Part shown: positions 56,990-62,294 of the stretch, piece by piece
How positions within the stretch are numbered: position 1 is the first letter of the stretch
Layout of the letters: the number at the start of each line of letters is the position of its first letter
NCBI GenBank assembly: GCA_016791445.1
Contig: JAEUMP010000016.1
Location: 124,001-188,000, forward strand
Direction of reading: 5' to 3'
DNA: 64,000 nucleotides
Origin: Hyphomonadaceae bacterium
GTDB taxonomy: Bacteria > Pseudomonadota > Alphaproteobacteria > Caulobacterales > Aquidulcibacteraceae
Made by a program: the position numbers and the translations under genes
Notes under the pieces: generated by a model
Told to the model about the DNA's origin: nothing
What the model saw: only the letters and a program-made list of their open reading frames with translations
Databases searched by the model: none

Positions 56990-57035
56990 AACTCAACACT
57001 GCGCACTGAGTTTGAGTCACCCGGTGGGACGACTC

Positions 57036-58376
57036 ATGGACGGCATTCGCTCACGCATCACCATCCGCTTGATCGACGCCACGTCGGCGCCGAGCGATGG
57101 CGAACTTCGTATCTGGGACACCGACGTGCGCGGCTTCATGCTCCGCATCGCCAAGAGCGGGCGCAAGACCTATTGCCTCAAATATCGCTACAGCAACCGC
57201 CAGCGCTGGCTCACCATCGGCGAGCATGGCTCGCCGTGGACGCCAGACACTGCGCGCGCCCGCGCGAAAGAAGCGCTCTACCAAGCCAGCCACGGCGAAG
57301 ACCCCCAAGCGGTGAAGGTGGAAACTCGCGCCAAGAGTGGGACGATCAAGGAGCTGTTCGAGCGCTATTTCGTCGAAGGGCGCATCGACAAACCGCTCAA
57401 GCGCGAAAGCTCCTGGAAGGTCGATCGCACCAATTACACGCGCCACATTGAGCCGCTGATCGGCAAACGGATCGCGCGCGAACTGACGCTCTCGGACCTT
57501 TCCCAATGGCAAGCACAAGTCGCTGCTGGGAAAACCTCACTGGACGTGAAGACCCGTAAGCAGGGCCGCGCCATTGTCACAGGTGGGACAGGCGCAGCGG
57601 CACGCTCGATGCGCACGTTATCGGCGATGATGTCTTGGGCCGTCCGCCACGAAATCCTCGATCATAACCCTTGCGGCAAAATCCAGAAGTATCGTGATGA
57701 GCAGCGAGAACGCGCGCTTACCGAAGAGGAAGCCATTCGGCTTTGGACGATGATGGCTGAAGCGGAGAAGGCCTGGGTCATTACCAGGGATTTCGCTGAC
57801 ATCTTCCGCCTGATCATGCTCACCGGCGCGCGTCGGACCGAAATCGTGGCACTGCGTTGGTCGGAAGTAGATTTCGACCGCGCCCGCCTTGTGCTGCCGC
57901 CGGTCCGGACCAAGATGGGCGCACTCAATCGCTCCCGGCACATCGTCCTGTCGGCGCCGGCGCTCGACATCCTGCAAAAGGCAAAGCGACGCGGTGAGCA
58001 TGTCTTCCCATCAAGCGTGGGCGATAAGCCCCTCGTGGGTGTCAATCGCGCCTGGGAAAAGGTGCGCACACTCGCTGGCATCTCCGACGTGCGGCTGCAT
58101 GACCTCCGCCACAGCTTCGCGACCTTCGCCGTCGAGAACGGCGCTTCCCTCTTCCAGGTTGGTCGCGCCTTGGGGCACGCGAAGTCAGTTTCTACGGAAC
58201 GATATGCCCACCCGACCGATGCAGGCGCGCGTGCCATTGCGACGGACGTGGCGGCGCGCTTTGTCCCGCCGGCGGCGCCGCCGGCAAACGACCGCGATTG
58301 CCCCCGCGATATTCAGGCCGAGCTTCCGTTTGATCCTACGACCTCGTCGAAGGAACACCGAACCGTTGGGGGATAG
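57036..58376 (+). CDS. Tyrosine recombinase (integrase) of the island
   Basis: A 446-residue phage-type integrase. An N-terminal arm-binding domain of the DUF4102 type (ELRIWDTDVRGFMLRIAKSG and KTYCLKYRYSNRQRWLTIGE, residues 20-70) is followed by a core-binding SAM-like domain and a catalytic domain. Catalytic residues are the Arg in TGARRTEIVALRW near residue 265, His-x-x-Arg in LHDLRHSFATF near residue 355, the second His in ALGHAKSV near 381 and the Tyr in TERYAHP near 390. The ATG at 57036 was preferred over a TTG at 57012. It lies about 230 bp from the tRNA fragment. Confidence 0.92.
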   Translation: MDGIRSRITIRLIDATSAPSDGELRIWDTDVRGFMLRIAKSGRKTYCLKYRYSNRQRWLTIGEHGSPWTPDTARARAKEALYQASHGEDPQAVKVETRAKSGTIKELFERYFVEGRIDKPLKRESSWKVDRTNYTRHIEPLIGKRIARELTLSDLSQWQAQVAAGKTSLDVKTRKQGRAIVTGGTGAAARSMRTLSAMMSWAVRHEILDHNPCGKIQKYRDEQRERALTEEEAIRLWTMMAEAEKAWVITRDFADIFRLIMLTGARRTEIVALRWSEVDFDRARLVLPPVRTKMGALNRSRHIVLSAPALDILQKAKRRGEHVFPSSVGDKPLVGVNRAWEKVRTLAGISDVRLHDLRHSFATFAVENGASLFQVGRALGHAKSVSTERYAHPTDAGARAIATDVAARFVPPAAPPANDRDCPRDIQAELPFDPTTSSKEHRTVGG

Positions 58377-58466
58377 TGGCTGCCTGGGCTTGGAGCCACT
58401 TGCCTCGCTCCGAGGTTCGAGGTCCGCTCCCGTCGCAGTCATGGGCGCGATTCTAGGACAGGTTCC

Positions 58467-59702
58467 GTGAAGCCGATCACCCTCTTTTATTCGTGGCAGA
58501 GCGACCGAGACGGAAACCTCTGCCGCCACTTCATCGAGAAAGCGCTGGAAACCGCCATGGAGCTACTGACCTCCGAAGGCATCGCGCTCACCATCGACGC
58601 CGACACGCGTAACGTACCGGGCACGCCGCCGATCAACGCCACCATCCTGAAGAAGATCGAGGCCTGCGACGTCTTCCTCGCAGACATGACATTCGTCGCC
58701 GCCACCGAGGGCGGCAAGCTCACGCCCAATCCGAACGTGATGGGTGAATACGGCTACGCGCTGAAGGCTCTCGGCCACGAACGCATCTTGCTGGCCATGA
58801 ACACCGCGTTCGGACCGCCGGAGCAATTGCCATTTGATTTGAAACACCAGCGCTTCCCGCTTCAATACGACGCCGCGGTCAACATCCAGAATGCGCCGCG
58901 CCGTGCGCTTCGGCGAGACTTCGGCCGCAAACTCGCCGACGCGATCATCCCCGTCGCCGCAGCGGCGCTCGCCATGGCGCAACGCACGAACGCCGACACC
59001 GAAGCACGCGCGCGCGAACTCGCCATGGAGCATCGTGCCGCGTTCATGCGCGGCAATACCCCCGCCATCGTCACCCGCCCTTGTCTTTCGATGCAACTCG
59101 CGCCGCTCGCGGCCTTCAGCGGCGTGACGCTGACGCCGCGCAATGTCGCGCCCGTGGTCGAAGCCTTCCTGCCGCCACGCTATCAACGGGCGCGCCAAGG
59201 CGCCGACGAGCGCATGTGGTGGGCGAGCGATCCGCCGCGCCCGGTCACCGGAAAACCTAACCCAGAGGTGGATTGGCTCTTCACCGTGGCGCGACCCGGC
59301 GTGCTGCAGTTTGCGGTCTGCCTGGGGAAGCTGATCGACGACGACCCCAGGATCGCGGTTGAGGGGCTCCAGCTTGAAGCGTGGATCGTGAGGATGGCGG
59401 AGCGCTTGTTGCGTGACGCCGAAGCGCTGGGGCTGCCGGGTCCGGCTGTGATCGATGTGGGCTGCGAAGGCATCGACAACATCGATGTGTTTCCGGGCCG
59501 ACTGAAATCGGTCCGCGTGCAGCGCCAGACGGTGCTGCTCAACGGTCCGATAATCACGCTCGGTGCAACGCCGGTCGCGACTCAATTGCGCGCCGTACTT
59601 GATGATTTCTGGTTGGCGATCGGGCGCGGGGCGGGCTCGCCGTCTTTCCCCGATGATCATTGGCAAGGCTATGATGATCTGCCGGATTACCGGCTGGCCT
59701 AG
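58467..59702 (+). CDS. TIR-like domain protein, candidate defence effector (411 aa)
   Basis: The first ~130 residues form a TIR/nucleosidase-like domain: LFYSWQSDRDGNLC at 6-19, TIDADTRNVPGTPPIN at 42-57, ILKKIEACDVFLADMTF at 60-76 and NPNVMGEYGYAL at 88-99, with Glu94 at the position of a catalytic Glu. Proteins with this FYSWQSD head occur in defence islands, where relatives may degrade NAD or related nucleotides (inference). The remaining ~280 residues are unrecognised and may be the sensor. It is convergent with hipA (6-nt gap). Position next to integrase supports a cargo role. Confidence 0.6.
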   Translation: MKPITLFYSWQSDRDGNLCRHFIEKALETAMELLTSEGIALTIDADTRNVPGTPPINATILKKIEACDVFLADMTFVAATEGGKLTPNPNVMGEYGYALKALGHERILLAMNTAFGPPEQLPFDLKHQRFPLQYDAAVNIQNAPRRALRRDFGRKLADAIIPVAAAALAMAQRTNADTEARARELAMEHRAAFMRGNTPAIVTRPCLSMQLAPLAAFSGVTLTPRNVAPVVEAFLPPRYQRARQGADERMWWASDPPRPVTGKPNPEVDWLFTVARPGVLQFAVCLGKLIDDDPRIAVEGLQLEAWIVRMAERLLRDAEALGLPGPAVIDVGCEGIDNIDVFPGRLKSVRVQRQTVLLNGPIITLGATPVATQLRAVLDDFWLAIGRGAGSPSFPDDHWQGYDDLPDYRLA

Positions 59703-59708
59703 CGCCGA

Positions 59709-61007
59709 TCAGGCGTTGCTGGCGGCCGCGGCATGTTCGGCGCCGTAGATCGCTTCTAGGCCTTTGCAGCGCGCCGCCAGTTCTTTGACTAAGCGATCGA
59801 GTGTCTCGTTGCGCAAGCCTTGCTCGCGCAATTCATCCACGAGCACACGGGCTTCATCGGGCGCGCGCGCGATAATATCGCGAATGTGACCGAGCGCGCG
59901 ATCGGCGTTGAATCCGACATCCGCGGACAAGGCCTCCCAATGGCGCGGGATGATTTCTTTTAAGACCCGATGGCCATCGATGCCCATCGCCAGTGACGAT
60001 TCGCGGCGGTCTGCCGCGTATGGCAAATCGCTGATCACATCGTAGAGCGGCGCCAAGCGGAAGGCGCCGCCGGGGGCGTAGACGATAGAATAGTTGCGCG
60101 CGTGCGCATCGGTCCCGGCGATAATAAAGTTCAGCGCTTGCGCGCGCATGAAGCGGTCGCGGTCGACATTTGGGTTCGCGGAATCCAACAACAGCGCCAT
60201 GATGTGCTTGATGGTAGGCCCACCGTCCGACTGATATTTGCGCAATGGGTTCACGCCCAGCGCCTGGCACATGTCCTCCTGGTGGACACGGAAGACACCT
60301 TGCGTGCGCCGCAGTCGGTCATAGCGCTCGACGATGATCACCGGCACATCGCCGATCATCTCGACGACGGAAATGGCGGCGGCCATATCGAGGCGGCGCG
60401 CAAGTTCAAGGCAGAAGTGTTCATTTGATGCGATGTGGCGAATGCGGCCGGTCTCGGGCTTAAAGATGTGCGTAGTGGGCGTGCGGCCCTGCGGCACCGC
60501 CCAGCTGTTCTTGATCTTGTAGAGCGCGGTTTTCGCTTGGGCGCCGGCCAAACTGAACTGGCCATTGTCTTCGGCCAAACGCCCGGCGCCGGGGTCGTTC
60601 TTCAGCGCCAGCATACGCGCCTCTAGCTCCTTGCGCGTCAGCCGTTTCACATTTTCCCGGCCCGCGAGTTCGACATCGGGCGGCACCAATTGCACAGCAC
60701 CGGGGCAATCCTCCCCCACCGCCGCCAGCAGCGCGAACGGGTTGCGCGCAGACACCTGAAAGCGCCTGGCCCATTCGTCGAGGATCCGCTCATTATCCGG
60801 AAGCAACCCCCACATGAAATTTGTGATCGGCCGCACGCCATGGCGCTGTTGCTGCAGCGGCATCGAGCGCGACAGCGGAATGTGACGCGGGTTGCGCTGC
60901 CAGTCGGCGAGGTACTCGAAGCGGTAGCTGCCATTGGGGCGCTGTGTCAGCTGACCAACATCCTTGTCGGTCAGCAGCACGCGCAAGGTTTTTCCGTTGG
61001 CGCTCAT
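59709..61007 (-). CDS. hipA: HipA-type toxin kinase
   Basis: A serine/threonine kinase toxin; E. coli HipA phosphorylates glutamyl-tRNA synthetase. The 432-residue protein has an N-terminal subdomain, GQFSLAGAQAKTALYKI near residue 150, HIFKPETGRIRHIASNEHF near residue 180, IVERYDR and FRVHQEDMCQALG near residue 240. The catalytic loop GTDAHARNYSIVY is near residue 297 and the Mg-binding LAPLYDVISDLPYA near residue 322. All main HipA motifs are intact, so it is probably active. It starts inside the hipB stop codon (ATGA), so translation is coupled. Confidence 0.93.
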   Translation of the reverse strand: MSANGKTLRVLLTDKDVGQLTQRPNGSYRFEYLADWQRNPRHIPLSRSMPLQQQRHGVRPITNFMWGLLPDNERILDEWARRFQVSARNPFALLAAVGEDCPGAVQLVPPDVELAGRENVKRLTRKELEARMLALKNDPGAGRLAEDNGQFSLAGAQAKTALYKIKNSWAVPQGRTPTTHIFKPETGRIRHIASNEHFCLELARRLDMAAAISVVEMIGDVPVIIVERYDRLRRTQGVFRVHQEDMCQALGVNPLRKYQSDGGPTIKHIMALLLDSANPNVDRDRFMRAQALNFIIAGTDAHARNYSIVYAPGGAFRLAPLYDVISDLPYAADRRESSLAMGIDGHRVLKEIIPRHWEALSADVGFNADRALGHIRDIIARAPDEARVLVDELREQGLRNETLDRLVKELAARCKGLEAIYGAEHAAAASNA

Positions 61008-61303
61008 TTGCGCTTCAATCCGGTATTGGCGATGGCATCGAGATCGACGAAATCATCTTCCGCCTTGCGTTGGGGCGGTGGCGGGGATGGCGGCGCCTCA
61101 CCGCCAAGCGTCAGCGGCAAATCAAGCGCCTTAAGCATCTGGAAGATGAGTCCAATGCTGGCGCCGGGATAACCCTTTTCCACCTTGGAGATCGCGGACT
61201 GGGTGACGTTGATCTCATCGGCCAGCCCACGCTGAGTCTGCCCGCGGGCGATGCGCCGCTCGCGCAGCACAGCGCCCAATTCTCGTACGCTCTTGGCCTG
61301 CAT
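61004..61303 (-). CDS. hipB: HipB-type antitoxin/repressor
   Basis: A 99-residue XRE-family helix-turn-helix protein: LGAVLRERRIARGQTQRGLA near residue 9, ADEINVTQSAISKVEKGYPG near residue 28. A Pro/charged tail follows (APPSPPPPQRKAEDDFVDLD). It should neutralise HipA and bind palindromic operators, as E. coli HipB does. Its start lies 5 nt from the first of five operator-like palindromes (61309-61423). It precedes hipA in the usual antitoxin-toxin order. Confidence 0.93.
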   Translation of the reverse strand: MQAKSVRELGAVLRERRIARGQTQRGLADEINVTQSAISKVEKGYPGASIGLIFQMLKALDLPLTLGGEAPPSPPPPQRKAEDDFVDLDAIANTGLKRK

Positions 61304-61308
61304 GGCTC

Positions 61309-61423
61309 ATTCCTATCAGGAATTTTCTAATTTATGCCTATCAGGAATTTCTTACAAGATGCCTGACAGGAATAATCTACAACATTCCCATTGGGAATAT
61401 ACAGAAACATTCCCGCCGGGAAT
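61309..61423. promoter_or_regulatory. Five HipB-type operators at exact 25-bp spacing
   Basis: Palindromes of the form ATtCC-N5-GGAAT lie at 61309-61323 (spacer TATCA), 61334-61348 (TATCA), 61359-61373 (TGACA), 61384-61398 (CATTG) and 61409-61423 (CGCCG). Copies 1, 4 and 5 are perfect; copies 2 and 3 have ATGCC in the left arm. Start-to-start distance is 25 bp in all four steps. The array fills the divergent intergenic region between hipB and the defence operon. HipB binding is inferred from position and from the E. coli precedent of TATCC-N8-GGATA-like repeats. Confidence 0.85.
61329..61357 (-). promoter_or_regulatory. Likely hipBA promoter
   Basis: On the minus strand TTGTAA (61352-61357) and TAAATT (61329-61334) are separated by 17 bp, close to a sigma70-type -35/-10 pair. 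The second operator palindrome (61334-61348) lies in the spacer, so repressor binding would block polymerase. Inference from position and consensus. Confidence 0.5.
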
Positions 61424-61475: not shown

Positions 61476-62294
61476 ATGAGCGCCTCGATCGGACGAATTC
61501 AAACGGACGCGGACTATGAAATCGCGCTGCTGCACGAGGCGCACGAAGCGCTCGCCGACATCATCACGCCAAAACTCTACAAAATCGCAGGACCGGCGGG
61601 CGACCAACAGATTGCCTTCCACACCGCCGAGCATTTTGAACTTTTCCTGGTCCGGCTCGTCGAATTGTTTTCCGCGGGCGCGCCAATCGGAGGTCAGACG
61701 CGGAACGTCCAATTGATCGAAGGATTGGCGTGGTTGGCGGCAACGCATCCGGCAGAAGCCGCGCACTGTGGCCTAGGCGAAACGGTCGCCACCCTGCAAA
61801 GCTGGGCGGGCGAGGAAACCGATGCCGAGTTCTGGTGTGGCGAACTTGGCCTTCAGATCAAGCTCCGGCTGAGCCGCCGCGACATTATTTGGTTTGCCGC
61901 GAACTGCGCCAAGCACGGGTTGTTGCGTCTCTCCGTGGTGTTGGAAAAGCTTGAGCGGAAGCTCAACGCGAACGGGGTCAGCGTGCCGCCGGCGGACATC
62001 GTCGCGATCTTGCCTGACCTGCGCCAGGAGGCGACCAATCGTGTGGAATATCATGCAAGCTATCTGGTCGAGATGATCGGACACGTGTTCGTGGCGCTCA
62101 ACCGCATCGCTTGGCGCCGCTTCAAGGCAAACCCCACCAACGAGACGCGCAAGATGACCATGCCCGTCGGCGTCTCCTCGGATGTGTTCCGCAATCTCTA
62201 CGGCTCATTCCTGGTATTCAAACGCTACGACGAGGCGACCAGGATCACTACCTACATTCCGCAGACCACACGTTACTTACGAATGCGCTTTTGA
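61476..62294 (+). CDS. Unrecognised helical protein upstream of the STAND gene (272 aa)
   Basis: No family recognised. It is a soluble, mostly alpha-helical protein (MSASIGRIQTDADYEIALLH, then EAHEALADIITPKLYKIAGP, AEHFELFLVRLVELFSAG and SVVLEKLERKLNANGVSV). There are no membrane segments and no obvious catalytic motif. The ATG at 61476 has GAAGGG 8 nt upstream; a GTG at 61452 is less likely. Its stop codon overlaps the start of the STAND gene by one base (TGATG), so the two are translationally coupled and probably act together, for example as partner, inhibitor or accessory sensor (inference). Confidence 0.7.
   Translation: MSASIGRIQTDADYEIALLHEAHEALADIITPKLYKIAGPAGDQQIAFHTAEHFELFLVRLVELFSAGAPIGGQTRNVQLIEGLAWLAATHPAEAAHCGLGETVATLQSWAGEETDAEFWCGELGLQIKLRLSRRDIIWFAANCAKHGLLRLSVVLEKLERKLNANGVSVPPADIVAILPDLRQEATNRVEYHASYLVEMIGHVFVALNRIAWRRFKANPTNETRKMTMPVGVSSDVFRNLYGSFLVFKRYDEATRITTYIPQTTRYLRMRF

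Follow-up and report, generated by a model that had tools for sequence, protein, structure and literature searches.

Why should the region upstream of a hipB-hipA gene pair carry five copies of one inverted repeat, placed at exactly equal distances? This question is raised by a stretch of 64,000 nucleotides from a Hyphomonadaceae bacterium (contig JAEUMP010000016.1, positions 124,001 to 188,000; the whole stretch is referred to as the window), in which an array of five 15-bp palindromes is found between hipB and a divergently oriented gene (Table 1). Comparison with homologous loci makes it very probable that the array serves hipBA as its autoregulatory operator. Evenly spaced arrays are the norm of the HipBA family, and the window is its short extreme.

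The initial annotation had described five palindromes with an exact 25-bp period, and this is borne out, as all four start-to-start distances are 25 bp. A search for ATTCC-N5-GGAAT with 0-1 mismatch gave no match in the 64-kb window outside the five array sites. Given the base composition nearby, the probability of a site with no more than one mismatch is p = 3.5e-5 at any one position. Five such sites in register would be expected ~1e-16 times, all positions and 45 periods being allowed for, which leaves no room for coincidence. The outer arms are 94% identical across all five sites. The spacers of the two right-hand sites had earlier been considered unrelated to those of the left three, which does not hold: in every site the two bases at +/-2 from the dyad are complements of each other, T-A in the left three and C-G in sites 4-5. 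The spacers are symmetric variants of each other, as expected for one dimeric protein, and the array site is better given as the odd-centred 15-bp motif ATKCCY-N3-RGGAAT. Note also that only four more exact matches to the site pattern, each of them single, occur elsewhere in the 3.6-Mb genome; the reversed-pattern control for this count is an unfair null for a palindrome, and no wider regulon is claimed from these matches.

The genes downstream of the array form a HipBA type II toxin-antitoxin module, in which a hipB-like helix-turn-helix (HTH) gene directly precedes a full-length hipA kinase gene that overlaps it by 4 bp. In HipA, the catalytic and autophosphorylation positions aligned to Escherichia coli S150, K181, D309 and D332 are identical, and G22 is likewise kept in the residue map; HipB scores under the curated NCBIfam cut-offs. 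Immediately in front of hipB, the same inverted repeat recurs five times. The proposal of the initial annotation that they are HipB operators is supported by a genuine HipA and HipB and by homologous loci carrying like arrays.

In HipA searches that covered GTDB contigs and 385 genomes of the class, ~110 loci were identified, most of which have a hipB-like open reading frame (ORF) upstream of hipA. The window was compared with ~105 other hipB-hipA loci. Autocorrelation was computed over the 150 bp upstream of hipB in 74 loci whose HipB proteins are <70% identical to each other. The mean z reached 1.51 at lag 27, 1.05 at lag 54 and 0.60 at lag 26, and was -0.05 at lag 25; the window alone has its peaks at lags 25 and 50. 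The strongest lag was 26-28 or 52-54 in 56 of the 74 upstream regions, the corresponding numbers being 14 for the adjoining 150 bp further upstream and 12 for coding DNA of hipA. Codon periodicity could contribute to the lag-27 signal: 27 is divisible by 3, and a small excess at this lag is also present within hipA coding DNA (0.50 vs 1.51 upstream). It does not account for lag 26 or for the palindromes. Palindrome pairs scored above the 99th percentile of shuffles in 48/106 upstream regions (a set that counts the window's locus twice) vs 1/106 hipA-body controls, and after site refinement 116 of 143 adjacent site distances were 26-28 bp. The only 25-bp distances in the refined table are the window's four, an earlier, looser scan having given one 25 among 27s in L079. 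In GC-rich loci this first scan did not separate real arrays from palindromes arising by chance, and it was superseded by scans with shuffles and coding controls. Real arrays in four loci (L061, L067, L072 and L120) were overlooked by the automatic scan and seen by eye, their positions then being computed, so that the automatic counts of arrays are lower bounds.

With 25 bp in all four intervals, the window thus lies outside the usual 26-28 bp range, which is a statistic of this analysis and not a published criterion. What makes it unusual is the combination of this spacing with a 15-bp odd-centred site, most relatives having 18-bp even-centred ones. Sites that were not evenly spaced in homologous loci would have spoken against the initial annotation; the comparison found evenly spaced arrays of the same kind. 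A family-wide 26-28 bp rule was not found stated in the literature searched, a search that key subscription papers lay outside. Upstream of hipB in L122, the first scan gave up to nine TGTCG..CGACA-like palindromes over ~290 bp, several of them at 26-bp steps, of which five were left after refinement. In a separate HipA clade (L054, L057 and L105), TTCCCGATCGGGAA-like operators with a half-site related to the window's are found upstream of hipB at 49-50 bp, twice the window's period.

The nearest HipA relative, from a Hyphomicrobiaceae metagenome-assembled genome (L061; HipA 49% identical), resembles the window in having five exactly periodic sites directly upstream of hipB. It differs in its period of exactly 27 bp (sites at -141, -114, -87, -60 and -33), in its 18-bp TGTAATCGATCGATTACA-like sites and in its half-site. 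In a quick HipA tree, where the window's branch is long, the window falls within a supported 10-row clade whose other members carry mostly 27-bp arrays, and the simplest reading would be that the period was shortened from 27 to 25 bp in the lineage of the window.

These relatives also bear on the division of the array into two groups of sites, one for each promoter, as put forward in the initial annotation. In its fuller form, hipBA would be repressed from sites 1-3 and the divergent gene governed from sites 4-5, HipB being the switch between them. The array does lie in a divergent intergenic region, between gene starts at 61303 and 61476, and the two groups do differ at +/-2 from the dyad; however, this difference is a symmetric base-pair swap between sites with nearly identical arms, and L061 has five sites too. 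Promoter-pair scoring found no convincing plus-strand promoter within the array (best score 9, vs 10.5 and 9.5 on the minus strand). Arrays occur, moreover, next to upstream neighbours of either orientation (co-directional at 32 loci, divergent at 18) and at 15 loci with no such neighbour, so that the extra sites need no second promoter. The two groups are therefore not supported, and we consider such a dual switch decidedly unlikely.

Half-site sequences vary widely among hipBA loci. Over 67 loci, half-site likeness tracks the likeness of HipB helix 3 (partial r 0.31, 0/2000 permutations) more closely than that of the rest of HipB (partial r 0.13, 1/2000 permutations). For example, helix 3 RQWLNAFE pairs with half-site TGTCGCC, SQRWVSHVE with TATAATCGA or TATGATCGA, and RQATIS with TATACG. 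That half-sites follow helix 3 supports the arrays as operators of their cognate HipB. Neighbouring units are 0.75-0.96 identical in their outer arms and ~0.3 identical, near background, in their linkers; such conserved arms and drifting linkers indicate that sites and spacing are maintained, and argue against recent tandem duplication. A recent duplication of a 25-bp unit, yielding regularity without function, would account for the exact period in the window, where every linker is AT-rich and some letters close to the midpoint are common to them. At 10-11 bp from the dyad, however, the linkers are no more than 0.25-0.38 identical, with the arms still near 1.0. The same kept arms, free linkers and fixed spacing are also seen in loci with unrelated operators from several phyla, and an origin of this kind is highly improbable.

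Several points weigh against regarding the array as the operator of hipBA. HipB binding at the window's sites is deduced from sequence comparison, and the permutation tests, made on related loci, do not wholly remove shared ancestry. The window's operator is shorter than the E. coli TATCC-N8-GGATA, odd-centred and unlike it, and the promoter assignments are consensus matches only. HipB itself is distant from every HipB found here (<=45% over a 66-aa core): homologues within the source organism's own family reach 35% at best, a plasmid search gave two weak matches, each <45% identical, and no closer relatives were found in the viral contigs searched. At the window's locus, binding by HipB, its cooperativity, the resulting repression, the promoter and an influence on the divergent gene are all properties that we infer.

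In E. coli, HipB binds cooperatively to four operators (PMC3920265, PMC3376134), introduces a 70-degree bend into the DNA and has HipA attached at its flanks (PMC3920265), and HipA dimerises within operator complexes at the promoter (PMC7029023, PMC6581861). The E. coli hipBA operators O1-O4 resemble the window's sites as several palindromes just upstream of hipB, and mediate there cooperative HipB binding and autorepression with HipA as co-repressor (PMC3920265, PMC3376134). They differ as four 18-bp even-centred sites at -134, -106, -67 and -39, with intervals of 28, 39 and 28 bp, which agrees with the earlier statement that E. coli hip has four less regular sites. The window's five sites depart from the E. 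coli consensus, and the half-sites of its relatives are diverse as well. Regular inverted repeats have previously been noted in the hipBA1 and hipBA2 promoters of Caulobacter crescentus, which were related to the higher-order HipA/HipB/promoter complex of E. coli (PMC7029023). The regularity of hipBA promoter repeats is thus already known from Caulobacter. In Legionella hipBST, evenly spaced operators O1-O3 are likewise bound by a HipB, but there are three sites with 53-bp gaps and conserved inner spacers, and the toxin is split (PMC10653801).

On the favoured reading, one HipB dimer would bind each 15-bp palindrome, with one half-site per HTH, and the fixed 25-bp spacing would bring adjacent HipB (or HipB-HipA) complexes into contact, leading to cooperative filling of the five sites. 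The filled array would shut off hipBA, since sites 1-2 lie over the -35/-10 spacer, the start site and the ribosome-binding site that hipB is likely to use; upon degradation of HipB the array would empty and the operon would be transcribed again. At 10.5 bp per turn, 26-28 bp correspond to 2.5-2.7 turns and 25 bp to 2.4 turns, placing neighbours roughly on opposite faces of the helix. The constant spacing in unrelated operator sequences fits contact between adjacent complexes, and since the edge-to-edge gap between operators is 10 bp in the window vs 8-10 bp for the 18-bp relatives, the gap from complex to complex may be the conserved quantity. The initial annotation had taken regular phasing to favour a cooperative filament or DNA wrapping: functional regular phasing is supported, while filament or wrapping is just one reading, and the 26-28 bp phasing would fit HipA dimerisation in E. 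coli operator complexes at least as well. In the bridging model, as conveyed by citing papers, HipA would connect operator complexes. It is possible, if somewhat doubtful, that the family-wide 26-28 bp rule reports a conserved HipB-HipA neighbour contact, and that in the window, as a naturally occurring variant, operator and period have become shorter together, with a different geometry of the HipB dimer or of the HipA-HipA pair and perhaps a filament of five units.

The spacing might instead be set mainly by the geometry of RNA polymerase, with an operator between -35 and -10, and not by HipB-HipA contacts. Many loci do have one operator between the -35 and -10 of their best promoter, the -10 phases appear clustered (mostly 0.2-0.4 and 0.5-0.8), and the near hipB promoter candidate of the window likewise has an operator in its spacer. 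This geometry accounts for one interval, but not for a series of three or four equal intervals that extends well beyond the promoter in the upstream direction, and we hold it to be unlikely. A second promoter-like pair further upstream, TTTACG/TATATT (61449-61421), scores higher than the near candidate. The ribosome-binding site of hipB is likely the minus-strand half of site 1, AGGAA (61314-61310).

The high-persister change hipA7 of E. coli has been proposed to act through weaker HipA dimerisation in operator complexes (PMC7029023). If operator spacing reports HipA contact, its near constancy at 26-28 bp in unrelated operators would extend the bridged state to the HipBA family as a whole, with the 25-bp array as a natural test of geometric flexibility. 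The spacing also provides a simple sequence rule for locating HipB operators in unannotated genomes.

Table 1. Coordinates in the window of the putative operator sites, candidate promoter and genes.
Feature	Position	Strand	Sequence or product	Location or matches	Basis
Operator site 1	61309-61323		ATTCCTATCAGGAAT	5 bp before hipB ATG (61303-61301)	sequence
Operator site 2	61334-61348		ATGCCTATCAGGAAT	within spacer of best near hipB promoter-like pair	sequence
Operator site 3	61359-61373		ATGCCTGACAGGAAT		sequence
Operator site 4	61384-61398		ATTCCCATTGGGAAT		sequence
Operator site 5	61409-61423		ATTCCCGCCGGGAAT		sequence
Candidate hipB promoter	61329-61357	-	TTGTAA (61357-61352), 17 bp, TAAATT (61334-61329)		consensus match only
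hipB	61004-61303	-	antitoxin and HTH repressor, 99 aa	Pfam HTH_3 2.9e-11; NCBIfam TIGR03070 7.4e-13 (below curated cut-off); PDB E. coli HipB 7e-4	
hipA	59709-61007	-	full-length Ser/Thr kinase toxin, 432 aa	HipA_C 4.5e-47; Couple_hipA 2.8e-26; PDB HipA 9.7e-69	
Divergent gene	61476-62294	+	272 aa (or 280 aa from GTG 61452)	without family match	

The promoter region of the divergent gene lies at the far end of the array, which may thus control this gene as well. Sequence searches assigned it to no family and matched it in 2/398 genomes, its own included. The divergent gene (window 61476-62294) is followed by a very large ORF of ~2045 aa of the STAND-type nucleoside triphosphatase (NTPase) kind (L143:5112-11249), whose match to the Avs1b anti-phage model is only partial (E 2.1e-28). 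The two genes could possibly constitute a new defence system. Just beyond hipA (window 57012-59702), a tyrosine integrase is found together with a 411-aa gene whose TIR-like match is weak and does not reach the cut-off (PF10137, E 0.037). This setting suggests that hipBA may be carried on a mobile defence island. Past the STAND gene, a 669-aa ORF (L143:11589-13598) has a relaxase-like look, judged by eye only, with a histidine-rich HHDTGRPHVHLLMRG stretch.
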